A stretch of 64,000 nt of DNA from Pseudomonas denitrificans (nom. rej.). Lineage in GTDB: Bacteria; Pseudomonadota; Gammaproteobacteria; Pseudomonadales; Pseudomonadaceae. Positions 25,494 to 61,861 of the stretch are shown piece after piece; the first letter of the stretch is position 1, and every line of letters begins with the position of its first letter. The notes below the pieces were generated by a model that ran no database searches, was not told where the DNA came from, and saw only the letters and a program-made list of their open reading frames with translations. The stretch covers positions 5,866,501 to 5,930,500 of the forward strand of contig NZ_CP043626.1 in the NCBI RefSeq assembly GCF_008807415.1. Reading direction: 5' to 3'. The translations under genes were made by a program, and so were the position numbers.

Positions 25494-25504
25494 TTTATGT
25501 GGTA
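25489..25504. other. Left island junction (att site)
   Basis: Core GAACC (25,489-25,493) followed by T and TTATGTGGTA (25,495-25,504). The right junction has TACCACATAA (61,750-61,759) followed by GAACC (61,760-61,764): a 5-bp direct repeat of target with 10-bp inverted element ends. Confidence 0.88.
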
Positions 25505-34978: not shown

Positions 34979-34999
34979 TTCGCACACCAGTTGGGGAAT

Positions 35000-41146: not shown

Positions 41147-41163
41147 GATCGAGCCCTGCTCCT

Positions 41164-42168: not shown

Positions 42169-42188
42169 GTTTTTGTTCTCGAGTGCGG

Positions 42189-42704
42189 TTAGCGAGCGTT
42201 CGGCGATTTTTTGTCGAACTGGCTGATGTAGTTGATGTGTACAGGGTGCTGAATCGCGCGGGGCCGAAGGGCTTGTACCTGGGCAACGGCTTCGCGCATG
42301 GGCATGCCGCACTCGATCAGCAGCTGGGCCGCGATCAGACCTGTGCGACCAGAGCCGCCCTTGCAGTGAATGGCGATCTTCTGGCCGCCATTGACCAGCT
42401 CTTTGAGGCGATCTCGATTGGTTTCCCACGCAGTGGAGAAAGCTTCACCGGGTGCCTGGTCATCCTCAACGGGCAGGTGGAACCATTCGATCCCTTGCAG
42501 TTGGCATTCCTCGGGAAGTAGGTCGACTTCGTTCTGCAGCAGTTCTTCTTCTGGCATCAGGGTCACCAGAGCTACCGCGCCGGCGTCGCGAAGCGTGGCC
42601 AGTGCCTCGGACACCGACGTGTCCTTGGTGCCGGGGCACGGAGTGAAGATCAGTTGGCCGCTCAGATCGGACGCGGTAAGAACGGAATACGGATGCGATT
42701 GCAC
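42189..42704 (-). CDS. Dual-specificity-type protein phosphatase in the ars operon
   Basis: A 171-aa Cys-based phosphatase with the P-loop [10 protein letters not shown] (C-x5-R) near residue 113 and a likely general-acid region ([12 protein letters not shown]). Proteins of this type recur in arsJ-gapdh clusters of Pseudomonas; the substrate is not established. It lies 20 bp upstream of the GAPDH gene and 12 bp downstream of arsH, in one operon. Confidence 0.85.
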
Positions 42705-42716
42705 GTTCAGAAAGCC

Positions 42717-43433
42717 TCAGATGGATCGTTGATTGACACGTTTGGATAGCTCTTCCGCCGACTCCTTGCGCTCGGAGTAGCGGTCGACCAGGTAGTCGGC
42801 GCGATCACGCAGTAGCAGGGTGAACTTCACCAGTTCCTCCATCACGTCGACGACTCGGTCGTAGAACGGAGAAGGCTTCATGCGACCTGCCTCGTCGAAC
42901 TCCAGGTAGGCCTTGGGCACGGAGGACTGGTTGGGGATGGTGAACATGCGCATCCAACGGCCAAGCACGCGCATCTGGTTAACGGCGTTGAACGACTGCG
43001 AACCGCCGCAGACCTGCATTACCGCCAGGGTCTTGCCCTGCGTGGGGCGCACGGCGCCCATGCTCAGCGGAATCCAGTCGATCTGCGACTTGAACACGCC
43101 CGTCATGGCGCCATGGCGCTCCGGCGAGCACCAGACCATGCCTTCCGACCAGAGCACCAGGTCACGCAGTTCTTTGACCATGGGATGGTCATCGGACACG
43201 TCATCCGGAAGCGGCAGACCTGACGGATTGAAAATCCGCGTCTCGGCTCCGAAGTGCTCCAGCAAGCGAGCGGCCTCCTCGGTCAGCAAACGGCTGAAGG
43301 AGCGTTCGCGCGTCGATCCGTACAGCAGGAGGATGCGCGGTTTGTGAGTCGATTTCTGCTCGATAGCCAGTTTGTCCGGGGACGGCAGATCGATCAGTTC
43401 GCTGTCGATATTGGGGATATGGTCATTGGTCAT
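42717..43433 (-). CDS. arsH: Organoarsenical oxidase / NADPH-dependent FMN reductase
   Basis: A 238-aa flavodoxin-like enzyme. The FMN phosphate loop [15 protein letters not shown] (about residues 36-50), the conserved [20 protein letters not shown] and [17 protein letters not shown] are ArsH hallmarks. ArsH oxidises trivalent methylated or aromatic arsenicals to less toxic pentavalent forms and reduces FMN with NADPH. Starts at ATG 43,433, 4 bp after acr3. Confidence 0.94.
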
Positions 43434-43437
43434 GATT

Positions 43438-44499
43438 TCACTCCTGGGAAAGGGCGCCAGAGGCTTGATCGAACCAGCGACGCTTGAGCCACCAGGCAAC
43501 GCCGACCAGAGAGATCAGTACGGGTACTTCAACCAGCGGCCCGATCACGGTCGCAAAGGCGACGGGGGAGGCTAGGCCGAAGGTGGCGATGGCCACGGCA
43601 ATGGCGAGTTCGAAGTTGTTGCTCGCGGCGGTGAACGCCAGCGCGGTGGTGCGTGGGTAGTCGGCCTCCAGCAGCTTGCCCATCCAGAAGCTGATGAAGA
43701 ACATCACCACGAAGTAGATGGTCAGCGGGATCGCGATACGCAGCACGTCCAACGGCAGTTGCAGCACCATGTCGCCCTTGAGGCTGAACATCGCAACGAT
43801 GGTCAGCAGCAGAGCTACCAGCGTCAGCGGGCTGATCTTCGGAATGAAGCGATCCTGGTACCAGGCTGCACCCTTGCGGCTGATCAGGATTTTCCGGGTC
43901 AGGAAGCCAGCCAGGAACGGGACGCCCAGGTAGATCAGTACCGACTGCGCGATGTCTACGAAGCTCGTTTCAATGACGCTGCCTTCCAGGCCGAACAGGG
44001 GCGGCAACACGCCCAGGAAGATCCAGGCGTACACGCTGAAGAACAGAATCTGGAAGATGCTGTTGAAGGCGACCAGGCCCGCAACGTACTGGTTATTACC
44101 GCCCGCGATCTGGTTCCACACCAGCACCATGGCGATGCAACGCGCCAAGCCGATGAGGATCAACCCCGTCATGTACTCGGGCTTGTCGGAGAGGAACACC
44201 ACGGCCAACACGAACATCAGTACCGGGCCGATCACCCAGTTCTGAATCAGTGACAAGGCAAGAATGCGCTTGTCCTTGAAGACTTGCGGCAGCTCCTCGT
44301 ATTTCACCTTCGCCAATGGCGGATACATCATGACGATGAGGCCAATGGCGATGGGGATGTTGGTCGAGCCAATCGACAGGCTGTTCAGCCAAGCCGGCAG
44401 CCCCTGGAAGAAACTGCCGAGCGCTATACCAAGCCCCATGGCGAGAAAGATCCAGATCGTCAGGTAGCGATCCAGGAAAGAAAGACGACTCTTGCTCAT
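43438..44499 (-). CDS. acr3: Arsenite efflux permease of the ACR3 family
   Basis: A 353-aa membrane protein with ten hydrophobic helices. The family features are [40 protein letters not shown] (conserved Cys of helix 4 in LARC) and [19 protein letters not shown]. Exports As(III) using the proton motive force; ArsA encoded further upstream could energise it. Sits between arsC and arsH. Often annotated arsB. Confidence 0.94.
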
Positions 44500-44516
44500 G
44501 ATGGGTCTCCGTAGTT

Positions 44517-44987
44517 TCAGAGCGTGCCGATGCGTGCCAGCTCCGCCTTGAGTTGGGCTGCATCGAGTTGTTCAAGGGGCAGTGCGAGAAACGCCGAAAT
44601 GCGCTGCTTGATCCGCTCAAGCGTGGCATCGAAGGCAGCATCCATCTCTTCCTTGCTACCTTGCAGGTCGGACGGGTCGGCAAGTCCCCAATGGGCCTTC
44701 GCAGCGGGCCCGAAGAACACGGGGCACGCCTCGCCGGCTGCCTTGTCGCAAACGGTGATGACCAAGTCCGGTGCCAGGTCGGCATGTGAATCGGTGGACT
44801 TGCTGCTCAGGCCATCAGTGGCGATACCGGCGCGCTGCAGGGCTGTGATGGACAGCGGATTCACTTCCCCCTTGGGCTCGCTACCGGCGCTGTATGCCTT
44901 CATGCCGACCGGAGCCAAGTGATTGAAGACAGCCTCAGACAAGATGCTTCGGCAGCTATTGGCGGTGCAGAGGAACAGAACTTTCAT
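44517..44987 (-). CDS. arsC: Arsenate reductase, low-molecular-weight phosphatase type
   Basis: A 156-aa enzyme with the P-loop [12 protein letters not shown] (C-x5-R) at the start and redox/active residues later ([30 protein letters not shown]). Reduces As(V) to As(III) for export by Acr3. ATG 44,987 is chosen to give the family N-terminus. Lies between arsR and acr3. A second reductase, shorter and diverged, is at 45,372. Confidence 0.92.
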
Positions 44988-45006
44988 CGGATCTTCTCGG
45001 CAGTCT

Positions 45007-45363
45007 TCAGCAGCAGGCAGCAACGCGCTCGGGGCGGTCGCCCATGGTGTCCAGTCGCTTGGAGCTCGTGCTCAACCACTGGCGGTTGGCTTCAAGAGTC
45101 GTCACGAGAATTTCGTGTACCCAGGCGGGCAGGTTTGGATGCAGCCGGTAGTACACCCACTGGCCTTGCCGGCGGTCTTCCAGTAGCCCACAGGTACGCA
45201 GCTGAGCCAGGTGGCGAGACACCTTCGGTTGGCTTTCATCCAGGGCACAGGTCAGTTCGCAGACGCAGAGCTCTTCCTCGCGAGCGATCAACAGCATCAT
45301 GCGGATGCGGTTTTCGTCAGCCAGGCATTTGAAAACCTGGGTCGGTGTCAGAGAGTCAGTCAT
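45007..45363 (-). CDS. arsR: Arsenic-responsive repressor
   Basis: A 118-aa winged-helix regulator of the SmtB/ArsR family, FKCLADENRIRMMLLIAREE, with the As(III) site ELCVCEL (two Cys in the alpha-3 helix) and recognition helix ESQPKVSRHLAQLRTCGLL. The terminal Cys-Cys pair (VAACC) could add a third thiol ligand. Represses the arsC2-arsR-arsC-acr3 operon from the promoter region 45,786-46,010 (inferred). Confidence 0.94.
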   Translation of the reverse strand: MTDSLTPTQVFKCLADENRIRMMLLIAREEELCVCELTCALDESQPKVSRHLAQLRTCGLLEDRRQGQWVYYRLHPNLPAWVHEILVTTLEANRQWLSTSSKRLDTMGDRPERVAACC

Positions 45364-45371
45364 GGCGGTTC

Positions 45372-45785
45372 TCAGTGTTTGGTTTTCACGAGGACGAACA
45401 TCTTGATGCGCTCGTGAATCTCGTGAAGCGTGTGACGGAAGGCGTCGTGGCGACTGCTGGTTACCGGATCTTCGGAGTTCCACGCCAATGCCTCGCCAAC
45501 CCCTGGAAGGGTTGGGCATTCCTGAGCGGCTTTGTCGCAAAGGGTGATGACGTAGTCGAAACGTTCACCCGTGAACTCTTCGATGGATTTGCTGTGCAGC
45601 CCGCTGGTATCGATGGCGAGATGATCGAGGGCGGCATAGGTTCGCGGGTCGATCACTCCAGGCTGAGTTCCAGCGCTAAAGGCCTCGAAGTGCTCACTGT
45701 CAGTGTGTCGAAGCAGCGCTTCGGCGAACTGGGAGCGAGCGGCGTTGGCGGGACAAACAAACAGGACGCGGATCTTGTCAGTCAT
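45372..45785 (-). CDS. Second arsenate reductase-like protein, low-molecular-weight phosphatase type
   Basis: A 137-aa protein, RVLFVCPANAARSQFAEALL with the C-x5-R loop, then ITLCDKAAQECPTLPG with two cysteines that could relay oxidation. Distinct from the arsC at 44,517 (different lengths and downstream sequence), so the island carries two reductases, possibly with different thiol partners. First gene of the operon, 8 nt before arsR. Confidence 0.85.
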   Translation of the reverse strand: MTDKIRVLFVCPANAARSQFAEALLRHTDSEHFEAFSAGTQPGVIDPRTYAALDHLAIDTSGLHSKSIEEFTGERFDYVITLCDKAAQECPTLPGVGEALAWNSEDPVTSSRHDAFRHTLHEIHERIKMFVLVKTKH

Positions 45786-46010
45786 CTCTGAGTGCTCGAA
45801 CGCATATGGTTTTTCGAATATACGTTTTTCCGCATAAATTTCAAGTGACGATTCTGTGACGGTTGCCGTGAGGCGATGTTTGGAGCAGAGAATCTGACGC
45901 AACTTGTTGGGGCGAGGTTGGGAAATAGGTCGCCTACTGCCACGTTTGACTCGACAGTAGTGCCGAGCACCCCAGAAGCCTCTCAGCCTTGGTGGTGCTC
46001 GGCGCAGCCT
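45786..46010 (-). promoter_or_regulatory. Promoter/operator region of the arsC2-arsR-acr3 operon
   Basis: Reading the minus strand, ATGCGGAAAAACGTATATTC followed by GAAAAACCATATGCG gives an imperfect AT-rich dyad about 30-60 nt before the arsC2 ATG, the usual place and composition of an ArsR site. The rest of the gap holds no gene. Confidence 0.5.
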
Positions 46011-47768
46011 TTAGCTGTGTCCGACCAGCGATTGCAGACGATCTATGCCGACAGGTTCATCTTTCAGCAGCGGGACAACCGCGTAGCGGGAGGAGTGCTT
46101 GGTAGCAACCGCATCGATTTCGCGGCGCTCATTCTCTGCTCTCCTGCGCAGCAGCGCGGATCTTGGCGCTGCTGCAGCGACGCTGTTATTGATCACCCAA
46201 GCCCATGGCTCGATACCTGCGCGGCGCAGATCGTCCTGCAGGTTTGCCGCCTCCAGAACTGGAGTGGTTTCGGCAAGCGTTACCAGGAGCACCTTGGTCT
46301 GCTTCGGATCCTGCAACTGCATCATCGGCGTGGTGTAGCCCACCTTCGTGTCGCCCATCTGGCGGACAATCTCGCGGTGATAGGCCCCTGTGGCGTCCAG
46401 TAGAAGCAGGGTGTGTCCTGTGGGGGCCGTATCCATCACGACGAACTTCTTGCCTGCTTCCCGGATGACTCTGGAGAAGGCCTGGAACACGGCGATCTCT
46501 TCGGTGCAGGGCGACCGCAGGTCTTCTTCCAGCAGGGCACGGCCTTCCGCATCGAGACTGGCGCCTTTTGTCTTGAGTACGTGCTGCCGGTATCGCTCGG
46601 TCTCAGCCTGAGGATCGATTCTGCTGACCGTGAGGTTCTCCATGACGCCTTCAAGCGTCTCCGCGAGATGCGCTGCCGGGTCAGAAGTCGTGAGGTGCAC
46701 CGGAAGGCCTCGGCGGGCCAGGTCGACTGCCACCGCTGCGGCCATGGTGGTCTTTCCTACACCGCCTTTGCCCATCAGCATGATCAGACCGTGCCCTTCG
46801 GCGGCGATGTCATCAACGAGCGGCGACAGCTTAGGTAAGTGAAGCTCGGTGTTCGTCCTGGTCTCCGCGACTGGCCCGATGGCCACATCAAGGAACAGGT
46901 GCTTCAGTGCATCGAGCCCCACCAGGTTGAAGGGTTTGAGTGCCACCTGATCGAGCGGAAGGCTACGAAGTACCTCCGGGATCTTCGCTAGTACCTGCTG
47001 CTCCCGCTGGTAGATGGCGGCTGCAAGTTCGTCGCCTTCTGCAGCGGCGGCCGGCAACACACCATTCACCACCAGGTACTGCTGCTTCAAGCCGATATCG
47101 GCAAGCTCCTCATGGGTGCGCGCAACTTCGCGGAGCGCAGCATTTTGGGCTCGTGCAACGAGTATCAGGCGAGTACGTACGGGATCAGCCAGCGCTGCTA
47201 CAGCCGCTTTGTACTGGGCGCGATGCTTTTCCAGCCCTGCGAGAGGCCCGAGGCACGAGGCATCGCCCTTACCGCTCTCCAAAAAGCCGCTCCAGGCTCC
47301 TGGAAGCTGCAGAAGGCGGATGGTGTGCCCAGTCGGCGCGGTGTCAAAAATGATGTGGTCGAACTCAGCGATCAGCGCGTCATCGGTGAGCAGTGAGGTG
47401 AACTCATCGAAGGCCGCGATCTCAGTGGTGCAGGCCCCGGAAAGTTGCTCCTCGATACCTTTCACGACATCTTCAGGCAGCACACCTTTCACCGGCCCGA
47501 CAATTCTGTCGCGGTATGCCTGAGCTGCCTGCTGGGGATCGATTTCCAGTGCAGCGAGACGGGGGACTTCCTGGATCTCGGTGACCTTGTTGCCGATTTC
47601 CGTACTGAAAACTTGGCCCACATTGGACGCTGGATCAGTGCTGACCAACAGGACGCGCTTGTTCTCGCCGGCCAGTTGGACGGCAGCAGCGCAGGCGATA
47701 GATGTTTTGCCGACGCCGCCTTTGCCAGTGAAGAAGAGGAAGCGGGGTGGGGATTGAAGAAATTGCAT
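46011..47768 (-). CDS. arsA: Arsenite-activated ATPase
   Basis: A 585-aa protein made of two homologous halves, each with a deviant P-loop (FFTGKGGVGKTSIACAAAVQ near residue 15; LIMLMGKGGVGKTTMAAAVA near residue 330) and a signature region (DTAPTGHTIRLLQLPGAWSG, DTAPTGHTLLLLDATGAYHR). It powers arsenite extrusion through the membrane carrier and receives As(III) from ArsD. arsD lies 12 bp upstream. Its usual partner is ArsB, but arsDA-acr3 clusters are also known. Confidence 0.95.
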   Translation of the reverse strand: MQFLQSPPRFLFFTGKGGVGKTSIACAAAVQLAGENKRVLLVSTDPASNVGQVFSTEIGNKVTEIQEVPRLAALEIDPQQAAQAYRDRIVGPVKGVLPEDVVKGIEEQLSGACTTEIAAFDEFTSLLTDDALIAEFDHIIFDTAPTGHTIRLLQLPGAWSGFLESGKGDASCLGPLAGLEKHRAQYKAAVAALADPVRTRLILVARAQNAALREVARTHEELADIGLKQQYLVVNGVLPAAAAEGDELAAAIYQREQQVLAKIPEVLRSLPLDQVALKPFNLVGLDALKHLFLDVAIGPVAETRTNTELHLPKLSPLVDDIAAEGHGLIMLMGKGGVGKTTMAAAVAVDLARRGLPVHLTTSDPAAHLAETLEGVMENLTVSRIDPQAETERYRQHVLKTKGASLDAEGRALLEEDLRSPCTEEIAVFQAFSRVIREAGKKFVVMDTAPTGHTLLLLDATGAYHREIVRQMGDTKVGYTTPMMQLQDPKQTKVLLVTLAETTPVLEAANLQDDLRRAGIEPWAWVINNSVAAAAPRSALLRRRAENERREIDAVATKHSSRYAVVPLLKDEPVGIDRLQSLVGHS

Positions 47769-52036: not shown

Positions 52037-52216
52037 GGGCGGCGCGATGTCAGCTATTGGCTGATAGTTGCCCCAAGGAAGCCGGTCTGGTAGGTCTTCA
52101 GTGTGTTCCCGATCCCGACGCATGGGGATAAGGGTTTGTTACGAGAAAAAGTGACGCACAATACCAGCTCGCCTGTGCCGTCTAATTTCGGTTGGCCAAA
52201 TCTTGAGATTTATTCA

Positions 52217-53014
52217 ATGTCAAAAGAATGGTTCAAGTTTCAGGAGAGGATAAAGGATCACTTTTTATCTCTGGGCGCAGAAGCTCGAACAAACATTCGC
52301 ATACAGGGTGTAAGAACATTTCACGATATCGACGTATATGTGCAAACTAGATATCTTGGGGAGGATCTAGTATGGCTGATCGAGGCGAAATATTGGAAGG
52401 CCAAAGTTAAAAAGAATCAGGTATTGGCGTTAAGGGCAATCGTTGAGGATATTGGTGCCGATCGGGGATTCATTGTTTCTATGGCGGGCTTTCAGAAAGG
52501 CGCCATTGAGGCTGCAAACAAAACTAATATAAAACTTAAGACATTCGAAGAGCTAGTCTCTGATACGAGAGAGTTTGCAGAGAGCGAGATACTAAGGGCA
52601 TATAGGGAAAGAATAAATTTGCTTGAAGACAGATACTGGTCGCATTCCAAACGTACGAGGATTGAGTACGGCCTCCGCCACGACGTCATTGACACTGTTT
52701 TCAATTTCACTGGTCAAGAGCTTCTAACAACCGCTAGAGGAGCAATAATGGCGGCGGAGGAAAGAGATTATCCTATTGATCTACAAATGGTTCTGACAGA
52801 GCGAAAAGGTGAAGCTATCGCGGACAGCTTTCAGCAGCTATGCAATTGGCTCAATTTGAATCTAAATCACTTGGATGAGCGCCTTCTCAATGCAGAGTGG
52901 CGCATGTACGAGAATGGAGAGTATCGACCAAATACTGGAAGAACTAAAACACGAGATTCTTACATTACTGAACTAACTGCAAAGGCGATGATGGGCAAGC
53001 TTGATGAGAAGTAG
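52217..53014 (+). CDS. Mrr-like restriction endonuclease-fold protein
   Basis: A 265-aa protein, MSKEWFKFQERIKDHFLSLG, with FHDIDVYVQ and LVWLIEAKYWK about 24 residues apart: the D-x(n)-E-x-K core of PD-(D/E)xK nucleases of the Mrr/restriction family. The C-terminal part is helical. Its AT-rich composition differs from the ars block on its left. Start 52,217 is chosen over the longer frame from 52,103. It may be a solitary type IV-like restriction or repair nuclease. Confidence 0.75.
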   Translation: MSKEWFKFQERIKDHFLSLGAEARTNIRIQGVRTFHDIDVYVQTRYLGEDLVWLIEAKYWKAKVKKNQVLALRAIVEDIGADRGFIVSMAGFQKGAIEAANKTNIKLKTFEELVSDTREFAESEILRAYRERINLLEDRYWSHSKRTRIEYGLRHDVIDTVFNFTGQELLTTARGAIMAAEERDYPIDLQMVLTERKGEAIADSFQQLCNWLNLNLNHLDERLLNAEWRMYENGEYRPNTGRTKTRDSYITELTAKAMMGKLDEK

Positions 53015-53194: not shown

Positions 53195-55360
53195 TCAGAC
53201 CGAAAACCCGACACAGAGCGTGTCGCTACGATTTTGGCGAGCGATGCTCTGCCGAGTCAATTCAAAAGTACTCATGATCAGAGTCAGGCGCTTGGAGCGG
53301 GAGATGCCGGTGTAGAACATGCTCCGCTCGACAAAATCGCTATTGGTCAGCGAGCAGATGATCGAGGTCTGGTACTCGCTGCCCTGCGACTTGTGGATGG
53401 AAATTGCGTAAGCAAGCCTCATCCCGAGTACAAAAAGATCCGCTCTAGATAGGTTGATGGTCGCTCCATTGAAGCTGAAGGTTCCGAAAGGCTGGCCGTC
53501 AATCACCGTGACGCCGGTCATGACCCCAGTGTTCCCGTTGAACAAACAATGTTCGTAGCTGTTCTGCGTAATGATCACGGGGTCGTCTACGCGTAGCCAG
53601 AATTTCCCCATCCAAATCCCTGGGTTCTGGTCTGAGCCCTGAAGCTCGGCTTGCAGGTGATTATTGATGGTATAGCCGGAGTCAGGCATCCGATCAGACA
53701 TGTGCGGAGTCAAGATCTGTGCTTCCGGAAGCGCAGCCTTGATCTTGGTCAACTGGTTCAACAGCTCAGTGCTGCTAGAGCAGTGAACCAGATACACCCC
53801 GTCCGTTTCGCCGCTCCAAACTGGGAGGCTCTCCATGTGGCCTGTGCGCACCTGCATTGCGGTCTGTTGAAGGGGGCTATCAGCGGCCGTTCTGTGTACC
53901 TTGGTTAGATGAGTGCAAGGGATCAGCTTCGATCTGGCGAGGGTGTGGAAGAAAATCCCGAAGCCCACAGGTGAAAGCTGTCCTGTATCGCCAACCAAGA
54001 GCAAGGAGAAGCTGTTCTTGCCGAACACCCTCAATAGTTTGAGCATCAGGGCGATATCAACCATGCTCGCCTCATCCACAATGATTAACGGGTCGCCGCC
54101 TGTGCTAATTGTTGATTCCTTGTCTTTAGCTTGAGCGATGAAGTTGTGGATGGTGTAGGTTTCGCGGCCGATTGCTTCTTTCGCTCTCTCTTTTGCTTTC
54201 CCGCTCAGAGCTAACACATAAACGGTGCGACATGCGGAGGCGATATCGACAATGGCTCTGAGTACTGTTGTTTTGCCTGTGCCGCCGAATCCGGTAAGCG
54301 TGCTGATTCGGTTAGTAAGAGCCATGGTAATCGCTAGCTTCTGTTGATCGGCCAATGTGTGTCCCGTTGCCTCGCTGTACTTAGCGGAGAACTTTTCGAC
54401 GGCCTCATCGATTTCGCTCACGCATCCATTCAGCAGCGACCTCTGGCTTGAAGCCAACTCCCTGACCCGCAGCTCAAGCTGGCTCTCGATGATGGCGGCG
54501 CCGAGGGGTTGGATAAGTGTCTTTTCGTGGAGCTTCTTTACACAAACGGCTCGGCGATCCAGCGCGCATTGGATCGCTTGGCTCGCCAGGGCCTTCGATT
54601 TCAGCATCAGATCAAGACTTGCCTCAAGATCCTCTACCGGGCAGGCCGTGTGACCTTGGTCGAGCCGACCATAAAGAATGTGCTCGACCAAGCCGGCGAG
54701 TCGCCTCGGGTCATCCCTCTCGATTCCAAGCTTTCCTGCCGCAGCTTCAATCGTTCGCCAAAGATTCGCGTGAGTCCCTTGAAAGGCAATCAAGCTGTAT
54801 GGATTTTGCTTCAGGCGTTCGACGGTGTTCGTCGAGCAAACCTTGAGAATGCTCCTCGCAAGACTCGGTTCGAACTTGTGTTGCATGAGGAACTCGACGG
54901 TTGCAATTTCGTTATGCAGCGTCAGCCATGATTCAACGAGCTTCTCGGCTAGGTCAGGGTTCACAACCTCGGCAATATGCGCAGACTTCCCAGCACTGAG
55001 AGTCTTAGCCAGATTCTCTGCTCCAAACTCCCTGACGAGTTTGCCGACCTTTGCCTTTCCAAAAGATAAGCCACGGAAAGCCGGATGCTTGATAAGCAGC
55101 TTTTCTATATAAGCGGCGACCACAACGTTAACAATGTGGCAGTCTTCGATTTGCACGTAGCTTCTAAACTGATCGTGCCCAATAATCGTGCCCTTGATGT
55201 GCCAGCACTCACCTGGTTGTGGAGGTCGAGTGATGATCTTGTAGCTCGCCTTGCACGTATAAACATTCTGGTCGCCTATTATGCGGCCAGAAAAAACGGC
55301 TCCACCGAAGCTACCCGGTTTAACGGAGCTTACCTGCAGCACGCCTAAAAGGGTGCTCAT
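53195..55360 (-). CDS. RecD2-like superfamily 1B DNA helicase
   Basis: A 721-aa helicase: helical N-terminal region with HhH-like segments (EFLMQHKFEPSLARSILKVC), Walker A TLTGFGGTGKTTVLRAIV (about residue 355), Walker B PLIIVDEASMVD, and the C-terminal motif AYAISIHKSQGSEYQTSII that completes a UvrD/RecD fold. RecD2-type helicases unwind 5'-3'. It is the last of five genes joined by ATGA overlaps with the recombinases, so it probably helps process excised or incoming island DNA. Confidence 0.87.
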   Translation of the reverse strand: MSTLLGVLQVSSVKPGSFGGAVFSGRIIGDQNVYTCKASYKIITRPPQPGECWHIKGTIIGHDQFRSYVQIEDCHIVNVVVAAYIEKLLIKHPAFRGLSFGKAKVGKLVREFGAENLAKTLSAGKSAHIAEVVNPDLAEKLVESWLTLHNEIATVEFLMQHKFEPSLARSILKVCSTNTVERLKQNPYSLIAFQGTHANLWRTIEAAAGKLGIERDDPRRLAGLVEHILYGRLDQGHTACPVEDLEASLDLMLKSKALASQAIQCALDRRAVCVKKLHEKTLIQPLGAAIIESQLELRVRELASSQRSLLNGCVSEIDEAVEKFSAKYSEATGHTLADQQKLAITMALTNRISTLTGFGGTGKTTVLRAIVDIASACRTVYVLALSGKAKERAKEAIGRETYTIHNFIAQAKDKESTISTGGDPLIIVDEASMVDIALMLKLLRVFGKNSFSLLLVGDTGQLSPVGFGIFFHTLARSKLIPCTHLTKVHRTAADSPLQQTAMQVRTGHMESLPVWSGETDGVYLVHCSSSTELLNQLTKIKAALPEAQILTPHMSDRMPDSGYTINNHLQAELQGSDQNPGIWMGKFWLRVDDPVIITQNSYEHCLFNGNTGVMTGVTVIDGQPFGTFSFNGATINLSRADLFVLGMRLAYAISIHKSQGSEYQTSIICSLTNSDFVERSMFYTGISRSKRLTLIMSTFELTRQSIARQNRSDTLCVGFSV

Positions 55361-55830
55361 AGGATGAATGATCTTCCAGAGTCGACCATCATTTCATGCT
55401 GGCTCGAGAGCTCCGAAGCTGTACTACGCAGAAGCCTGAGTTCGGCTGCTAGCCTCTCAACGTGACTACGAAGCAGTTCGTTCTCTTTGGACTTCTGGTC
55501 AAGCATGCTTCGCAGTTGGCTGACCTCTCGGCTCTTCGACTCCGCCAAGTCGATCAGAACTGATTCGGGATCTTTCGAAGCAGTTACATCACTTCCGATT
55601 CGACGTATGTCATTTGCGATTACGCGCTCAAGGGGCTGGCCGCTATCTCCGAAAATTTTTTTTGCACTCTCTGAGAACCATTGTCGCCGGTTTCCGCATT
55701 CGTCAGCGATCTTGCTGAAATTCACGTCGCCGAACTGATTGACTGGAAATTTCCCCCCCGCCAACTCAAGCTGGTTCACGTATGCGCAGTAACGCTCAAA
55801 AGGCGAAGATCTACTTTTGATGGCGGTCAT
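55357..55830 (-). CDS. Coiled-coil protein of the recombinase operon
   Basis: A 157-aa protein: an N-terminal DNA-binding-like part (FPVNQFGDVNFSKIADECGN, RRQWFSESAKKIF, HTH-like) and a C-terminal coiled coil (SREVSQLRSMLDQKSKENEL, LRSHVERLAAELRLLRSTAS). Arrangement recalls KfrA/TnpC-type accessory proteins that dimerise on DNA. Overlaps both neighbours by 4 nt. Role in recombination inferred from position. Confidence 0.68.
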   Translation of the reverse strand: MTAIKSRSSPFERYCAYVNQLELAGGKFPVNQFGDVNFSKIADECGNRRQWFSESAKKIFGDSGQPLERVIANDIRRIGSDVTASKDPESVLIDLAESKSREVSQLRSMLDQKSKENELLRSHVERLAAELRLLRSTASELSSQHEMMVDSGRSFIL

Positions 55831-56486
55831 GACAGCTTCCTTTTCGCTTTGATCCAGCTAATAAAAGGTTCTGCTACATCTTTTGGAACAAGACCTTCTT
55901 CGGGTTCAAGATCGTTAAAAGCGCACGTTATCTTCTTGGCATTCATATCAACTTTGAACATGCCGTCGCTAGCGTCAAGTACTAGCTTGAGAGCTCGGCA
56001 CGTTTTGTCAAATTTTTCCATGAATGCGTGATCTATTTGATTCGAATCTGGGAGAGATATTGGAGATGCACCATGCGTGCGGAGCGCTGCACGTAGAGCC
56101 TCAGCTTCTGCTTTCAACCTTTCTACATCGGCTTGAAGATTGTCTGCACGTTGTACAGCGAGCTTGCCTACAAGCTTGTCTTTCTTGGATTCCATCTCTC
56201 CCGACGAATCCCAATATTTGTAGTAGATTGGCCCGATCAGCGCCCAATATTCATCGCTCTGAACCAATGTTCTGTAACCGATCTTCTTTTCGTTTATAGG
56301 AAGACCATCGTTATACAGTTCGGCACAAAATCTGGAGAAAGGCGTTACTCCGTCGAAGGAAGTCTTCCCAGCGAAGGCCTTCAATTTTGGAATTACCTCC
56401 TCTTTGATGCGAGCTGTTCTGTAATCGCGTTTGCGCTTTTGGGAGGCCGCGAAGCGATTTTGACCTGGTTTAGCTCCTTTGGTCAT
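55827..56486 (-). CDS. gmtX: Gamma-mobile-trio protein GmtX-like
   Basis: A 219-aa protein with a basic N-terminus (MTKGAKPGQNRFAASQKRKR), a region with PFSRFCAELYNDGLP, a coiled coil (RADNLQADVERLKAEAEALR) and a C-terminal domain (CRALKLVLDASDGMFKVDMN). It occupies the third position after the two tyrosine recombinases, as GmtX does in gamma-mobile-trio islands, and parallels the small TnpC of Tn554-like systems. Assigned by position and architecture rather than by a unique motif. Confidence 0.62.
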   Translation of the reverse strand: MTKGAKPGQNRFAASQKRKRDYRTARIKEEVIPKLKAFAGKTSFDGVTPFSRFCAELYNDGLPINEKKIGYRTLVQSDEYWALIGPIYYKYWDSSGEMESKKDKLVGKLAVQRADNLQADVERLKAEAEALRAALRTHGASPISLPDSNQIDHAFMEKFDKTCRALKLVLDASDGMFKVDMNAKKITCAFNDLEPEEGLVPKDVAEPFISWIKAKRKLS

Positions 56487-59400
56487 GCAGGGGCGCTCCC
56501 TGAATTCGAAATCAACTTCAGAATCGAATTGGGGCGGTCTAAGGCCATAGGTTTACTCATGGCATCGCTCAGGTCGTGCAGTGAAAGGCCTAGTACCTCA
56601 CATGTCGACCGTATAAGGCCCCTGAATTCGTCGATTAAGGTGAATCCAGTGGGCGCTTCCTGCAGCATGCGGTTGAAGTCTCCGGTGAACGCTAGAAGTT
56701 TGTTTCGCGCAACCTTGACCTGGTTCGCCAGCTGAGGCGTGAAGAATTCTGCGTGTGATTTTGCTTCGGAAGTCCTAGCAATCAAATTGCTCAGAGTGTG
56801 CTCTTTTAGCTCAAGACGCTCCAAATGTTCCGACACGATTTCTGGCTTTTCTACCAGAAAACTCGACCGGGTCTTGATGTCGCTCAGCATTTGCTCAAGG
56901 CAGTGAGCGGTTACACTCCAAGAAATTGTTTCTGAGGCCAAAAACTTACGATGATTGGCCTTATGCACTAAACTGTCAGACGATGCACCATTCTTTCTCG
57001 CTTCGGCAATATAGCTTTCCAGCTCGCTACACTCATCAGTCAATACGCGGATATGGCCGTGGATCCGGGGTAGATGGTCAACGGTCTTGATCGATAGGTA
57101 GCAGCTGCCGCAAGGCATTATTGATCCGGGCACTGCACCTAGGTCTCTTATGACATCTGCTGTGCATTGGTTACCAACGGGACAAATGTGGGTGGGCATA
57201 AAAACGAGCGATTCGAGAGGTCGCTGCTTCGCAGTTCTTACTCCAGACAGCACATCATCTTTGTTTTCGCGGTCGAACGAGATTGCGCCGAAATCTACTA
57301 ATGCTTGTTCTTTGTTTCTGCGAAATGCCTGCTGAAGCTTAGATGTAACCTCTTCAGCTTTGATGCAGGAGATCGCCGAAATATCGAAGTTCCATCCTTC
57401 TTCAATACCTTTTTTTTGGTATTCAGTGATTGTCTTTAGGTATGCCGGATCTAATTTGGCGTAGTAAATGACATGCGCTTCAGTGGCGTGTCCGGTGATA
57501 TGCGTGCCAATTATATGAGGTGGCAGAACTCGGATGTGTTCCGAGACTACGGATACTCGACAAGAGTGAGGCGTGTGTTCAATGAGCTTGCATGCCTCGC
57601 CTTCTAGCTTTACTGCTGTCAAGAAATCCGTAGGGTCTGAAATTGAATCTAAGTAAAGTAAGGCCTCTGGCATCTGATTGGTTGTTTCAATCTGCAATTG
57701 ATAGCGGCAGAAAAGATCAAATGAATAGATCAGCCTTTTGAAGTATTTCATGTACGATTCAGGGTGAAGAGTTCCCTGTTTCATCCAGTTCGGGAAGAGG
57801 GTAACTATTTTGCCAAACAAGCTATCTTCGTGATAGTCATACCACGTCTCTTCTGACATCAAAGGGTCATTGAACCATTCAGTCATGGTGTGTTGGCGGT
57901 CTAGTAATTCAATTACGTCCTTCGCTACAGATGCCTCCCAGGCGCCATTTACTTTGTCAGTGTTGATGTGGAGTTTACATATCTGAGCCAGCCTTCGAGA
58001 ACGGTCGATGTTTTGATCGTATGATCTTCTGTCGAGCCATCGAATGTGAATGCTGCGGATTCCGGTCTCTAGCGCAACGATGTTGTGGCGAATGTAATTA
58101 AGTTGCGGATAGAATACCCAGCGCTCATTGTTCATAACGCTGTGCTCAATGATAGGAATCACAGATCGCGATAAGAGATGGAGAGGTTCACACTTCATTC
58201 TCTTGTTAGAATTGCTTATCGGTTTTTTTGGGTCAAAAAATGGATTTTTATAGAATACAACGGGAATATATCCAAATTTTTCTGTCTGGATTACCTTCTG
58301 GGCATCATTCCAGTTTTTAGATGCAATGTCGCTTCTGAATTCATCTGCGTACAAGTTGATTTGCTCAAAATGCACTTTTTCAGATATATATGTTGCAAAT
58401 GACTCAATGGCGTAGCAGTAGTGGAGCAAGTAAGGAAAATGTTCAGACTCGAATGCAACCTTGTTCGTTCCTGATCTTCTTCTTACGACAGGGAAGTCAA
58501 TGTCGGTAATTGGGTTTGCAAATCCAGCTAAGTTTCTGTCGGAACTGGCGTGAGCTGCCATGTAATTGAAAAATGTATCAAGTTGGTACAGGTGGTTCTG
58601 GACTGTTGCTGATGATCGGCCTGACTTTATGCTCTTTAGCAAGCCGTCAAATTTATCACTTTCTACATGGCTGCGATTAAATTGATTTGGCAGTGGTGGT
58701 TGAACGCCGGCAGATAATAGTGTGCTGAATAGATAGGTGTTTAGTATCGCTAGAGACTTACGGTAGCTCTCATAGCTTTTCAATCCGCGCGATTTTAAGT
58801 GTTCAATGAACTTGTCTTGGTATCGCAACCATGTTGAAACGCATTCTAAATGCTCATCGGAGATGTGAAATTCTCCTCTAGTTATAGAGCTCTTTGATGC
58901 TTGTACATTATTCTTAATTGCGTGTTGTGGATCTTCTCGTTGGCATCGAGTGGGGTACAATTTCTGGACATACGCAAAAAACGCCTTTGGGGAGATCGGA
59001 TAAGTTATCCAATCGATTTCCTTCTTTCTCGCGGCTAGGAGAGCGTTAGCGCACTCTGCTACATCAGCTGGGTCAATGTCTTCAATCTTGTGCCAGTCAG
59101 ACGCTCGTACCATTCGCCAAGCGTACCACCCAAAGTTATCTATGGCGGAGGCTTGCATTACTGTGCGTATGTCGGGTATTCCCGTATATTGGAAGTGCGA
59201 GACATTGGGAAGACTCACCAGCGCCAATACTTCTGGGTAGGTGGGTGCCGCTAGCTCTTTGAAGTTTGATCCCGTGGTAGGATCTTTGACGGTGGGCTTT
59301 TTAAGTGTCATTGGCAGTAGTACTGCGCCTACATGCCAGAGGAAATGAAGAATTAATAAAGCGTCCTGGCTTAGCCTCATTAAGGACGAATTATTCAGCC

Positions 59401-59722
59401 AGTCGTGTGCGCTTGGGGGGGTGACGCGTTTAGCTAGATCTGCTGGCGGAGTTTTAAGAGCGCATAGGTATATATTCTTTATCCACTCTTCATCGTAAGA
59501 AGGTGGCAGGGAATGGTCAAGGTGACCATCAAATAAGCGAAAGATTGATGCTTGATAGTACTCATTTCTAGCCGAACTGGTGATTTTACTTGGCGAGATG
59601 TAAGCGCCACCATATAGCTCGTCTTTTACGCAATTTTTGGAGTGGGTAATGGCGAGCTTTATTGACTCCGAAAGCTCTGAGCCTGACTTCAAAATAATTA
59701 CTTCAAGAGTGAGGTTAATCAT
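56483..59722 (-). CDS. gmtZ: Giant tyrosine recombinase, GmtZ-like (VPA1269 family)
   Basis: A 1079-aa integrase. Tyrosine-recombinase residues are visible around 560-760: Arg in ALETGIRSIHIRWLD, His-x-x-Arg in EHTPHSCRVSV, and ITGHATEAHVIYYAK with the nucleophile Tyr. A cysteine cluster follows (HICPVGNQCTADV, MPCGSCYL), probably zinc-binding, then a helical C-terminal region. Size, paired small recombinase and order match GmtZ/VPA1269-type proteins. The stop/start overlaps on both sides (4 nt) tie it to its partners. Confidence 0.8.
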   Translation of the reverse strand: MINLTLEVIILKSGSELSESIKLAITHSKNCVKDELYGGAYISPSKITSSARNEYYQASIFRLFDGHLDHSLPPSYDEEWIKNIYLCALKTPPADLAKRVTPPSAHDWLNNSSLMRLSQDALLILHFLWHVGAVLLPMTLKKPTVKDPTTGSNFKELAAPTYPEVLALVSLPNVSHFQYTGIPDIRTVMQASAIDNFGWYAWRMVRASDWHKIEDIDPADVAECANALLAARKKEIDWITYPISPKAFFAYVQKLYPTRCQREDPQHAIKNNVQASKSSITRGEFHISDEHLECVSTWLRYQDKFIEHLKSRGLKSYESYRKSLAILNTYLFSTLLSAGVQPPLPNQFNRSHVESDKFDGLLKSIKSGRSSATVQNHLYQLDTFFNYMAAHASSDRNLAGFANPITDIDFPVVRRRSGTNKVAFESEHFPYLLHYCYAIESFATYISEKVHFEQINLYADEFRSDIASKNWNDAQKVIQTEKFGYIPVVFYKNPFFDPKKPISNSNKRMKCEPLHLLSRSVIPIIEHSVMNNERWVFYPQLNYIRHNIVALETGIRSIHIRWLDRRSYDQNIDRSRRLAQICKLHINTDKVNGAWEASVAKDVIELLDRQHTMTEWFNDPLMSEETWYDYHEDSLFGKIVTLFPNWMKQGTLHPESYMKYFKRLIYSFDLFCRYQLQIETTNQMPEALLYLDSISDPTDFLTAVKLEGEACKLIEHTPHSCRVSVVSEHIRVLPPHIIGTHITGHATEAHVIYYAKLDPAYLKTITEYQKKGIEEGWNFDISAISCIKAEEVTSKLQQAFRRNKEQALVDFGAISFDRENKDDVLSGVRTAKQRPLESLVFMPTHICPVGNQCTADVIRDLGAVPGSIMPCGSCYLSIKTVDHLPRIHGHIRVLTDECSELESYIAEARKNGASSDSLVHKANHRKFLASETISWSVTAHCLEQMLSDIKTRSSFLVEKPEIVSEHLERLELKEHTLSNLIARTSEAKSHAEFFTPQLANQVKVARNKLLAFTGDFNRMLQEAPTGFTLIDEFRGLIRSTCEVLGLSLHDLSDAMSKPMALDRPNSILKLISNSGSAPA

Positions 59723-61131
59723 GCTGGCTTTCCTTCAAGCCGCTTCGCCTCTTCGGCTAAAATCTCAAGCTGTCGGAAATGGAAGCGCTCACGGATCGTC
59801 CTGATCGAGTCCTCTCCTCGCTGCGTGACATACTGGTTTGCGTGCTGTAAGTAAGCATCGATAATGTCAGTGTCGTGCTTGGCGTATTTCATCGTCGAAG
59901 TGATGCTGGAGTGCCCCATCAAAATTTTCACGTACGTCATGGGCAGTCCAGGGGTGCTCTGACCAGGAACTGGAATGTAGTTTAATATGTATGTCCCATA
60001 CATATGCCGTAGAGAGTGTGGACTGATTCCTGTGATGTCTATTACACCGGCGAGCTTGGCGTACTTCTTGAATGTCTTGTCGCGGCTGCTGCGGTCGCTT
60101 GCGAAGAAGGGGCGAGCATCAGAATTTTGAAAAACGAAGTCATGGTTGACGCTTGAGTTGTATTCGAGATCTAAATACTTCTCGAGATTTTCCCAAAATA
60201 TGCGGGCGAACGGTTCAATCATGTAGGTCAGCTCTGTATCGCGTCCTTTCCACGAGAGAAACTTGTGCTCTTCTTCAGTTATTCCGGGCGTCTTCCTGGT
60301 GAATGGATTGCGAAGGAAAACAGTGAGCTCGTCGCTATCGATATCCTGAAATCTAAGCTGCAGAGCTTCGCTTGTGCGGGCACCGGTTGCAGCTAGTAAG
60401 GCGTAGAGTGTCATGTCTCGGTAGAAAGTCTTCGCTTTCTTTGGCTTGCTCTGCCTTAGAAGGTCGACTGAGCGCTCTATGGGATATGCGATAGTCTTGA
60501 AGGGCTGCTTGTCATTTCTCCTGTCCCTGCACTTTGCTTGTGGGAATAATTTATCTTTTTTTCGCTTTGGCAGAACAGAGTTGAGCGAATCCCGAATAAC
60601 AGCTGCCAGCCACGAGTTGGCTTTGTGGGCGGACACTTCGCATTGGCTTTTATATTCATTTCGATGCAAGTAGAACGGGCTAAATAGCTGATCGGGAGCA
60701 ATATTGTTCCGCGTTTCTGATACCTGAAGAAACCAGTGGATCGATGTCTCTATGGTCTGTGAGAGAGAGTTATGGCTCGTGAGTCTGTTTTTACCTAGGT
60801 GTTCTGCCAGCTTGCGAGCAATAGGGTTCGTGGCATCTTTACCGAACAGTAGGTAAGCCTGGTAGCTGTAGATGACGGTCTCAATTGAGACCTCGACATC
60901 AACAGGGAACTGGGTTTTGGATGCTTCGTAGACATAGTCGATGAAGCGACCAACGTGCTCTGCGTAAACCTTTACAGTGTTCGGGGAATACCCTCGCCGG
61001 CTCATCCATGAGGTGAAGTGAGTGAACGGTTTGAACTCTCGCGCCTCATCAGGCAGGCCGGGTTCCAGTTGGAGCAGGAGGTACCTTGCCTCGCTCGTCG
61101 GAGGAGCATCGACCAGTAAGAAATTCTTCAT
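59719..61131 (-). CDS. gmtY: Tyrosine recombinase, GmtY-like
   Basis: A 470-aa recombinase with an N-terminal SAM-like core-binding domain (FTSWMSRRGYSPNTVKVYAE, residues about 40-60) and catalytic domain: Arg in LLAATGARTSEALQLRFQDI, GISPHSLRHMYGTY (H-x-x-R), and LMGHSSITSTMKYAKHD (His and Tyr). It is the first gene of the operon. Its upstream region carries TACCACT and TACCACAC repeats that also occur at the island ends, suggesting the recombinase binds its own promoter. Confidence 0.88.
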   Translation of the reverse strand: MKNFLLVDAPPTSEARYLLLQLEPGLPDEAREFKPFTHFTSWMSRRGYSPNTVKVYAEHVGRFIDYVYEASKTQFPVDVEVSIETVIYSYQAYLLFGKDATNPIARKLAEHLGKNRLTSHNSLSQTIETSIHWFLQVSETRNNIAPDQLFSPFYLHRNEYKSQCEVSAHKANSWLAAVIRDSLNSVLPKRKKDKLFPQAKCRDRRNDKQPFKTIAYPIERSVDLLRQSKPKKAKTFYRDMTLYALLAATGARTSEALQLRFQDIDSDELTVFLRNPFTRKTPGITEEEHKFLSWKGRDTELTYMIEPFARIFWENLEKYLDLEYNSSVNHDFVFQNSDARPFFASDRSSRDKTFKKYAKLAGVIDITGISPHSLRHMYGTYILNYIPVPGQSTPGLPMTYVKILMGHSSITSTMKYAKHDTDIIDAYLQHANQYVTQRGEDSIRTIRERFHFRQLEILAEEAKRLEGKPA

Positions 61132-61135
61132 CGCA

Positions 61136-61157
61136 TACCACTTCCAAATACCACACC
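61136..61157. promoter_or_regulatory. TACCAC repeats upstream of the recombinase operon
   Basis: TACCAC (61,136-61,141) and AAATACCACACC (61,146-61,157). The latter 12-mer recurs at 61,730-61,741 next to the right junction, and TACCACAT/ATGTGGTA forms the two ends (61,750-61,757; 25,497-25,504). Likely recombinase-binding motifs. Confidence 0.6.
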
Positions 61158-61337
61158 ATTTTCAGCATTCAGTGTGGGGATTGAAGTGTCAACAAAATTT
61201 TGTGGCGACGATGATTTGCGGTGTTTAACGCGGGTCATTTCTGGCCAGAATTCCGCAGATTCACACCCAGACTGCACGGACTGCGCAGGTTGATTTGTCT
61301 GCCGATGATGCGCGGGAGCTCACTCAGAGCAGAAATG

Positions 61338-61365
61338 AAAAAGCCAGACCTGTTGGTCTGGCTTT
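61338..61365 (-). terminator. Terminator of the island tRNA-Ile2 gene
   Basis: On the minus strand AAGCCAGACC, loop AACA, GGTCTGGCTT, then TTT, 6 nt after the encoded CCA of the island tRNA. Confidence 0.87.
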
Positions 61366-61370
61366 AGGAA

Positions 61371-61693
61371 TGGTGGGCCCCCCGGAGTCGAACCGGGCAC
61401 CAACGGATTATGCTTACCAGCTACAGCTTTCGCTGCCCCTTTCGGGTTTGTGGTCTGGACTGTCTCTTGCCTTTACGGCTCGCCCGTACAGTCTCTACAC
61501 CTTCCTTGAAATCTCAAGGCTTGGCTCGGGATTACCACGCTAACGCAGAGGCTTCCCCGAATTTGAGCGATTCTACCGGGGGGCAGAGTCAACTTACCCC
61601 AAGGCAACCCATTTGCTCATCACCATGCCCTGCAAAGGGTTTAGGTTCTGAGCCCTTAAGTCCGCTGCTCTAACCAACATGAGCTAGAGGCCC
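61371..61693 (-). tRNA. tRNA-Ile2 (CAU) carried by the island, interrupted by a group I intron
   Basis: Minus strand. 5' exon 61,693-61,659 (35 nt): acceptor GGGCCTC, TA, D-arm GCTC/GAGC, anticodon-stem 5' side GCGGA, then CT. 3' exon 61,412-61,371 (42 nt): CATAA, TCCGT, TGGTG, T-arm CCCGG-TTCGACT-CCGGG, GGGCCC, A, CCA. Splicing after U33 rebuilds loop CUCAUAA with anticodon CAU; lysidine at C34 would make it read AUA as Ile. It differs from the host copy at many positions, including the T-loop (TTCGACT against TTCAAGT). One caution: the T-stem and acceptor share six G where seven are expected, leaving a 6-bp acceptor by my count; a lost homopolymer base would explain it. Confidence 0.88.
61413..61658 (-). 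ncRNA. Group I self-splicing intron (IC3/Azoarcus-like) in the tRNA-Ile2 anticodon loop
   Basis: A 246-nt intron between U33 and C34, ending in G as group I introns do. Core elements resemble the Azoarcus tRNA-Ile intron: UCAAAUUCGGGGAAGCC (J3/4-P4-P5), AAUCCCGAGCCAAGCC (P5'-P4'), P6 hairpin CCUUGAGAUUUCAAGG, GUGUAGAGACUG (P7), P3 pair CGCUC/GGGCG, P8 hairpin near CGAGCCGUAAAGGC, and GACAGUCCAGACCACAAACC (P7'). GAAA-type and similar loops close the 3' hairpins. No ORF is present, so it is not self-mobile by a homing enzyme. P1 with the exon ...GGACU is not resolved with certainty by eye. Confidence 0.87.
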
Positions 61694-61749
61694 AAATTTA
61701 CATCTAAAAAGCTATCAAATTCACGGTTCAAATACCACACCGTGCTTCG

Positions 61750-61764
61750 TACCACATAAGAACC
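61750..61764. other. Right island junction (att site)
   Basis: TACCACATAA (61,750-61,759), the inverted copy of the left end, abutting the target core GAACC (61,760-61,764). A second TACCACAC lies at 61,733-61,740. Confidence 0.88.
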
Positions 61765-61816
61765 GTGGACCAAAGGATTATGAGTCCTCTGCTCTAACCA
61801 ACTGAGCTATAGGCCC
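61760..61816 (-). pseudogene. 5' part of host tRNA-Ile2(CAU), severed by the island
   Basis: Minus strand from 61,816: GGGCCTATAGCTCAGTTGGT, TAGAGCAGAGGACTCATAAT, CCTTTGGTCCACGGTTC. Contains acceptor 5' strand, D-arm, intact intron-free CAU anticodon arm and half of the T-arm, then runs into island sequence. The 3' part is 36 kb away at 25,469-25,493. Still under the original promoter. Confidence 0.93.
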
Positions 61817-61831: not shown

Positions 61832-61861
61832 ATTATACCGGGGCGTTCTGGCTTGCGCCAA
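61832..61861 (-). promoter_or_regulatory. Host tRNA-Ile2 promoter
   Basis: Minus strand TTGGCG (61,861-61,856), 18-bp spacer, TATAAT (61,837-61,832), followed by a GC-rich discriminator (CCGCCCGCC) as in stable-RNA promoters under stringent control. It drives the 5' tRNA remnant and, reading on across the junction, the intron-containing island tRNA. Confidence 0.8.

Follow-up and report, generated by a model that had tools for sequence, protein, structure and literature searches.

The window, i.e. the whole 64-kb stretch of DNA analysed here, is part of a single-contig 6.88 Mb genome, and junctions read directly in it show that a 36.3 kb island splits the host tRNA-Ile2(CAU) gene. The 5′ part of the gene (61,760-61,816, minus strand) is cut in the T-arm at 61,760, and its last 6 bp, CGGTTC (61,760-61,765), are of the host's own type. 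The 3′ part with the CCA end lies at 25,469-25,488 (minus strand); from the T-loop to CCA, with the 6 bp at the junction included, it runs from 25,494 to 25,469. The split described in the first-pass annotation was confirmed at these positions (61,760-61,816 and 25,469-25,494). At the split gene Rfam reports a truncated tRNA alone (30 bits, model positions 6-65), and ARAGORN found no tRNA anywhere in the 64-kb window.

Pattern search revealed a sigma-70-like promoter site, TTGGCG-18-TATAAT, outside the island (61,832-61,861, minus strand); one match was found vs. 0.4 ± 0.6 in shuffled sequences. The sequence TATAATCCGC upstream of the broken half is present also at the 10 true junctions described below, and TATACTCCGC is present in G036. 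An intact site in a related genome without the island, which the first-pass annotation had named as a comparison to make, exists in G006, whose sequence aligns with both flanks (identity 90% and 93%) and has an intact tRNA between them; G017 was left out as a strain comparison, its flank being just 76% identical despite the 'same species' label. In each of the 24 other genomes of the genus that were searched, the 5′ end of the tRNA-Ile2 gene is matched once; the gene is whole in 23 of them and runs off a contig end in L044. A C4 antisense RNA (67.8 bits) is located just outside the left end of the island (25,099-25,187, minus strand).

The recombinase-proximal end of the island carries the motif TTATGTGGTA (61,750-61,759, minus strand), which is the same in the 13 proximal ends listed, and the recombinase-distal end carries an inverted relative of it, CTATACCACATAA (25,495-25,507, minus strand). 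Comparison of the ends revealed a 6-bp footprint, AGGTTC (25,489-25,494, minus strand), at the distal junction, where the host type is CGGTTC. Joined together, the island ends read CTATACCACATAA-AGGTTC-TTATGTGGTA, in which tRNA sequence amounts to six bases and no more. Neither junction rebuilds the T-arm: at one, CGGTTC is followed by TTATGTGG, and at the other CACATAA stands before AGGTTC. As the ends bring no tRNA fragment, integration cannot repair the target and insertion destroys it. Among 14 proximal ends, 12 have CGGTTC and 2 have AGGTTC, the latter two next to a T-arm of the GTAGG type, which is common in non-carriers. The 11 distal ends comprise CGGTTC, AGGTTC and GGGTTC (3 each), GAGTTC and TGGTTC (1 each), so that 3 of the 11 equal the common host type. 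The AGGTTC of the window would be consistent with previous residence in a host of the GTAGG type. Extra AATACCACAC-like motifs, possibly recombinase arm sites, were seen at 61,140-61,175 and 61,715-61,745.

Replacement tRNA gene and its intron

A complete tRNA(CAU) gene (61,371-61,693, minus strand), here called the spare, lies inside the recombinase-proximal end on the same strand as the host gene and begins 66 bp inside that end. Direct reading and alignment divide it into a 35-nt 5′ exon that ends at U33 (61,659-61,693), a group I intron of 246 nt inserted between U33 and C34 (61,413-61,658) and a 3′ exon with the anticodon CAU and CCA (61,371-61,412), all on the minus strand and followed by an intrinsic-terminator-like stem found by pattern search (61,340-61,365, minus strand). 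The gene lies behind the promoter-like site described above, which points in the same direction. A second tRNA with its own CCA and terminator inside the right end of the island, placed behind the host promoter, was therefore correctly described in the first pass, except that its acceptor stem is one base short. The spare was not reported as a tRNA either by ARAGORN or by Rfam at the gathering threshold, because the 246-nt intron interrupts its anticodon loop.

When the exons are joined in silico, the intron-type spare shows CAU in a 7-base loop, A73 and CCA. ARAGORN finds a CAU tRNA in 7 of the 8 joined-exon sequences, that of the window in a shifted register alone; the joined-exon sequence of L175 is incomplete at its 3′ end. 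Compared with the 7 other copies aligned, the window copy lacks one base in a G run of the acceptor stem; the other aligned spares that reach both ends have a complete 7-bp stem. A sequencing slip in the homopolymer is our first guess; if the shorter stem were a real mutation, the spare of the window strain would be weakened. The exons are identical across the aligned elements, save for this gap and one acceptor change in L124, which turns a G-U into an A-U pair and so keeps the stem paired where its sequence varies; the introns vary. The first-pass annotation proposed also that a diverged T-arm shields the spare from insertion. The flanks of the site do differ, but the 6-bp core CGGTTC is the same.

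The features of a group I intron are present: core helices P2-P9, a U.G pair at the 5′ splice site and a terminal G. Against Rfam Intron_gpI (RF00028) the intron scores 34.3 bits (E 4e-7 for a 521-base stretch), the gathering score being 50. Across 6 distinct sequences, the 51 pairs of the core helices (named by us) and of the D, anticodon and T stems were paired in 305 of 305 cells, with two-sided changes at 4 pairs (P2, P6a, P9 and P9.1), vs. 28-53% paired and no pair changed on both sides in slid controls, over which structures drawn with the window sequence as guide are favoured. Compared with 500 shuffles, the percentage paired, the cells with two-sided changes and the covariation score exceeded all 500, whereas the number of two-sided-change pairs was reached by 60 and that of further pair types by 456. 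For this analysis P6a was shortened from 6 to 4 pairs, because G036 differs there, and one P1-loop helix was left out of the covariation test (2 of 6 sequences unpaired at one pair).

In the proposed P1, the exon end GACU and the following UA pair with UGGGUU just before P2 in all 6 sequences, with the U.G pair at the proposed 5′ splice site in each. This P1 is invariant across the 6 sequences, and the P1-loop structure was no better than the same structure slid by one column (covariation score 0.072 vs. 0.082). A 5′ splice pairing immediately after the exon was rejected, as no pairing formed. A G stands directly before CAU in 8 of 8 joined sequences. The tRNA-Ile intron of Azoarcus sits after U36, whereas the island intron sits after U33. 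Judged from its structure and some covariation, the intron should self-splice to yield a CAU tRNA; the first-pass wording that the spare must self-splice is, on this evidence, a weaker claim.

Recombinase operon and cargo

The operon at the proximal end has the order recombinase, large recombinase, 219-aa protein and 157-aa protein, all encoded on the minus strand. The first product is a tyrosine recombinase of 470 aa (59,719-61,131; PF00589, E 1.8e-16) and the second a large tyrosine recombinase-like protein of 1079 aa (56,483-59,722; phrog_1, 22 bits), for which no Pfam family was found; R, HxxR, H and Y boxes were recognized by eye in both. The conserved 219-aa operon protein (55,827-56,486) had no match in Pfam, NCBIfam or PHROGs, and the conserved 157-aa protein (55,357-55,830) is predicted to have a long C-terminal helix. 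Structure predictions for the two were poor (mean pLDDT 60.1 and 75.7, pTM 0.35 and 0.37, respectively), and a PDB search with the 157-aa model returned nothing at E <= 0.001. A RecD2-like helicase is encoded at 53,195-55,360 on the same strand (TIGR01448, 328 bits, below the cut-off of 500).

In plasmids and phages the matches to the 470-aa recombinase were all distant, and in viral contigs there were none; no phage structural Pfam family was found in the 17 island proteins scanned. The cargo at 39,914-47,768 includes an ArsA ATPase, ArsJ, a GAPDH-like protein and a transporter of the sodium/bile-acid symporter family. Possible defence cargo was noted as well, namely a protein with a Cap4-type nuclease domain (33,818-34,987) and one with an Mrr-type restriction domain (52,103-53,014).

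Carriers and non-carriers

Close relatives of the 470-aa recombinase were found in Pseudomonas only, in 6 other genomes among 398 searched from the family, at 72% identity or more. Six recombinase loci came from the species-level collection, which was scanned by exact peptide patterns, so that close relatives alone show. The proximal junction pattern, searched in 398 genomes of the genus of G338, matched at 15 places, 10 of which are true junctions; L123, L125, L127, L129 and L131 were dropped, as no tRNA half was seen there by eye. Just inside all 10 true junctions lies a whole tRNA(CAU). With the window, G391, G343, G036, L113 and L114 added, and with L111, L112, L115 and L116 equated with the elements of G338, G391, G401 and G036, respectively (on exact match or coordinates), there are 16 distinct elements, each of which carries a spare tRNA(CAU). 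Eight spares have the intron (window, G338, G538, G421, G089, G471, G391 and G036) and eight are intronless (G551, G420, G383, G401, G676, G343, L113 and L114). On the question raised in the first pass, whether related islands each carry an intron-bearing tRNA-Ile2, the tRNA is present in all (16/16) and the intron in half of them. At the intron-bearing loci tested, ARAGORN reported no tRNA.

An intact host-type tRNA-Ile2 was present in none of 14 carriers (CTCATAATCCYTTGGTCNNNGGTTCRANTCCNNNTGGGCCC, <=3 mismatches), L113 and L114 being left out, vs. 375 of 381 tested non-carriers. Of the 388 non-carriers, 315 matched a narrower pattern; 66 of the 73 that it missed were searched with CTCATAATCCYTTGGTCNNNGGTTCRANTCCNNNTGGGCCC as for the carriers, which matched 60, and 7 were left out. 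The 6 misses are G256, G640 and four assemblies that are 78-91% complete (G498, G564, G638 and G646).

Two elements have kept the spare while losing most or all of the operon. In G538 the element is 12.2 kb long and tblastn shows no trace of the four operon proteins; in G089 it is 8.8 kb, with one truncated recombinase and the other three proteins absent. The two spares are nearly identical, so the two cases may not be independent. The 29 kb between the recombinase and the proximal end made Pseudomonas matsuisoli (L116/G036) look like a carrier without a spare, a reading that was rejected, since a broken host half and an adjoining intron-bearing spare were found. Many genomes in the genus of G338 hold 2-3 intact tRNA-Ile2 copies, often kilobases apart and on one strand. 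The tRNA-Ile2 locus looks like a landing hotspot, with copies such as ordinary gene-restoring islands would leave.

AUA decoding in the genome

Another intact tRNA-Ile2 elsewhere in the genome would speak against a rescue, as the first-pass annotation itself stated, and it was sought by patterns, Rfam and ARAGORN. A pattern allowing <=3 mismatches, run over the 6.88 Mb genome, found the broken gene alone, and a broader pattern over the same genome gave no further tRNA-Ile2. The whole-genome Rfam tRNA scan gave 63 matches, at the loci of which ARAGORN found no UAU anticodon. The CAU genes among the 63 loci are two tRNA-Met types and one weak gene, L077; ARAGORN labels all CAU genes as Met, and the division into initiator and elongator is by our own reading. 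L077 (G000:C1:3773141-3773211) is a tRNA-like gene of 42.9 bits whose acceptor stem appears poorly paired by eye and whose bases at positions 4-5 we take to be Met-like.

AUA codons are in use, with 2 in the neighbouring GGDEF-EAL gene and 18 in the large recombinase, and a TilS match above the cut-off was found in 14 of 14 carriers. In G383, which has an intronless spare, the TilS match is split over two overlapping frames (C1:1339677-1340217), from a frameshift or a sequencing slip. Since TilS is present, AUA is used and no other tRNA-Ile2 or UAU tRNA was found in the genome, AUA should be read by the product of the spare or, with lower probability, of L077.

Two spare types and their probable origin

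Alignment of the intron-type spare in its spliced form (L111) with the intronless one (L113) shows identity at 57 of 77 bases. For the intron type, 68 of 77 bases agree with the host gene, 72 of 78 with the rpoD-linked CAU gene of B. cenocepacia and 74 of 78 with a CAU gene found in G974. For the intronless type the likeness to the host gene is 53 of 77 bases; the nearest relative among the plasmids searched, a CAU tRNA from the array of tRNA genes on the Pseudomonas megaplasmid pMPPla107, matches it at 69 of 76. The intronless spare has C73 and an A4-U69 pair, both unusual for tRNA-Ile, and its assignment to tRNA-Ile2 is made, weakly, from context. We infer that the CAU spares are Ile2 rather than Met.

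Among 369 genomes drawn from the class, and apart from that of the window, 15 had a match to the intron-type gene (E <= 1e-8). One match, L174 in G704, is full-length, 79% identical, contains the same intron and lies downstream of rpoD; no operon protein was found in the 2.1 kb around it. NCBIfam identifies the upstream gene as RpoD both in G704 (670.9 bits) and in B. cenocepacia (967 bits), against a cut-off of 555. For Acidovorax and Burkholderia, tRNA-Ile2 genes with group I introns are mentioned in the available part of PMC8450103, which concerns genomes and no island, whereas here such a gene is island cargo that replaces the host gene. Given those introns and the extant rpoD-linked intron-bearing gene of G704, the island probably acquired its spare from an rpoD-linked tRNA-Ile2 gene of proteobacteria in which the intron was already present. 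A single change between the two spare types suffices on the recombinase tree (support 79/84; found in 88% of bootstrap trees); the tree has 16 rows with one long branch, L151, and in it G036 is labelled 'none' and G538, which has no recombinase, is absent.

Other intron-bearing genes were noted among the matches. L175 (G729) is a tRNA-Ile2-like gene with other acceptor and T-arm sequences in an AT-rich setting, L178 and L180, from two genomes belonging to one genus, have a related group I intron core inside a different tRNA, with the acceptor GCGCCCG, and L182 has a tRNA-Leu-like 5′ exon twice in a row before an intron-bearing copy.

Discussion

We propose, at a probability of about 85%, that an island targeting tRNA-Ile2 destroys its target and supplies a rescue tRNA(CAU) behind the host promoter, which in the window is split by an intron. 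The comparative data support rescue as much the best reading: a single host gene is lost and a spare supplied, as the first pass had suggested when it described the island as carrying its own rescue. In the proposed mechanism, a multi-recombinase mobile island with SE-like ends would insert into the T-arm of tRNA-Ile2 and destroy the gene, while carrying a complete tRNA(CAU) gene directly within its end on the side of the host tRNA promoter. That promoter would read through the dead half-gene into the spare, with transcription ending at the island terminator, after which the group I intron would splice out between U33 and C34 to leave a CAU tRNA, and TilS and IleRS would make it into a working tRNA-Ile2. 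The intron-bearing spare would derive from a captured rpoD-linked gene, and a sister lineage would use a different, intronless tRNA(CAU).

The spare-bearing end of the integrated island would be essential, and from this the spare is predicted to outlive the recombinases, which G538 and G089 fit. The dependence of the host on keeping the island, raised in the first-pass annotation, stands in part: the spare is kept in these two decayed elements, but the host gene could be restored by clean excision, perhaps altered at one base pair as a result of the 6-bp footprint.

Of the other explanations, the one that survives best is that the spare is a dead passenger and AUA is read by mis-reading or by another tRNA, for example L077 with its CAU anticodon. 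The acceptor stem of the window copy, one base short, would agree with this. We consider it improbable, as the introns vary between the aligned elements while the exons do not, except for that gap and the paired change in L124, and as the spare is present in 16 of 16 elements and persists in the decayed ones; L077 itself has a poorly paired acceptor stem by eye, and a dead copy would hardly be swapped for a second tRNA with the same anticodon.

We give still less credence to the intron as the selfish driver, i.e. a group I intron that homed into tRNA-Ile2, with the island its mere carrier. Half of the elements are without the intron and none is without the tRNA; the exons, too, are foreign (72 of 78 bases as in B. 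cenocepacia and 74 of 78 as in G974, vs. 68 of 77 as in the host), and 246 nt, at most 82 codons, would be small for a homing endonuclease. In its favour are the presence of the same intron in the rpoD-linked tRNA-Ile2 (L174) and the tRNA-Ile2-like gene L175, and that of related introns in other tRNAs.

Most tRNA-targeting islands rebuild the host gene from an attachment-site tRNA fragment, according to the available part of PMC4383910, and an ordinary island of this kind, with the extra tRNA as unimportant cargo, would be consistent with the 2-3 intact tRNA-Ile2 copies in many non-carriers. For the elements studied here this is very unlikely, being refuted by junctions of which neither rebuilds the T-arm and by the lack of an intact host-type copy in 14 of 14 carriers. 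An assembly artefact or mixed culture, in which the split host gene is a misjoin, is scarcely credible even with the one-base homopolymer difference that hints at sequence errors in the window, as it is refuted by the recurrence of the same junctions in 16 elements from different genomes, several of them on single long contigs.

The rescue reading is the same in kind as the tRNA-dependent lysogeny described in the available excerpts of PMC10865867, and its principle is already known from phages. That work describes, in 2024 and in Actinobacteria, phages that replace rather than repair their target tRNA, shows tRNA-dependent lysogeny experimentally in mycobacteriophages and finds tRNA-Ile2-CAT used for it by some Gordonia phages. 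Shared with the island are a short core (6 bp here) from which no functional tRNA is rebuilt and a tRNA supplied by the element, here with a CAU anticodon in 16 of 16 elements. The phages differ in being temperate, with one integrase and hosts in Actinobacteria, whereas we describe a multi-recombinase Pseudomonas island with an SE-like 6-bp footprint, in which two alternative spares, one of them interrupted by a group I intron, occupy one set position behind the host promoter. In Sinorhizobium meliloti, tRNA-Leu(UAG) is inactivated on integration of two prophages that bring a tRNA gene with a similar function (excerpts of PMC11476347); these are phages without an intron, unlike the island, in which one type bears an intron. 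The excerpts of PMC10865867 and PMC11476347 describe no multi-recombinase island with an SE footprint, no two alternative spares at one place and no intron-split spare.

Elements of the Islander type, by the available part of PMC4383910, likewise combine a tyrosine recombinase with a tRNA gene whose function must be kept, but carry an attachment-site tRNA fragment that restores the target, whereas the island described here has no such fragment and supplies a complete tRNA gene. SE elements (strand-biased circularizing integrative elements) share the inverted end motifs, the host 6 bp kept at the intA-proximal end and a variable or foreign 6-bp footprint distally, as far as PMC10214605 is available. 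They encode IntA/Tfp/IntB/Srap, whereas no protein lies between the two recombinases of our island; the likeness is one of ends and not of compared proteins. GInt islands (ginABCD) resemble it, in the accessible text of PMC5385486, in the multi-recombinase operon at one end, the small fourth protein and the site-specific insertion in Pseudomonas, and differ in having three recombinase-like genes vs. two here, gin being compared by description. No tRNA is mentioned in the available text of either the SE paper (PMC10214605) or the GInt paper (PMC5385486). To the Gamma-mobile-trio there is weak profile likeness, the scores of GmtY for the 470-aa protein (48.1 bits) and of GmtZ for the 1079-aa protein (30.3 bits) lying below the NCBIfam cut-offs of 340 and 600 bits.

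In the open literature we found no paper on this arrangement in Pseudomonas. What seems new is the use of the principle by a multi-recombinase island, together with the two interchangeable spares and the intron in one of them. With some hesitation, we lean slightly towards the wider view of a non-phage island family whose way of life is to substitute an exchangeable foreign tRNA for an essential one of the host, which would amount to an addiction module in which intron and intronless spares have been swapped and which puts AUA decoding under the island, in one lineage behind ribozyme splicing. Pseudomonas tRNA-Ile2 genes were seen otherwise without a splicing step.

Annotation can miss such spares, ARAGORN having been blind at the intron-bearing loci tested. 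Genes for tRNAs are favoured as landing sites because elements normally repair what they break, and the island family would extend the replace-not-repair principle to non-phage islands in Pseudomonas. Rescue by a carried tRNA would explain how an essential tRNA can serve as target and why the island end outlives the recombinases. If this reading is true, AUA decoding in carriers should depend on an RNA of the island.
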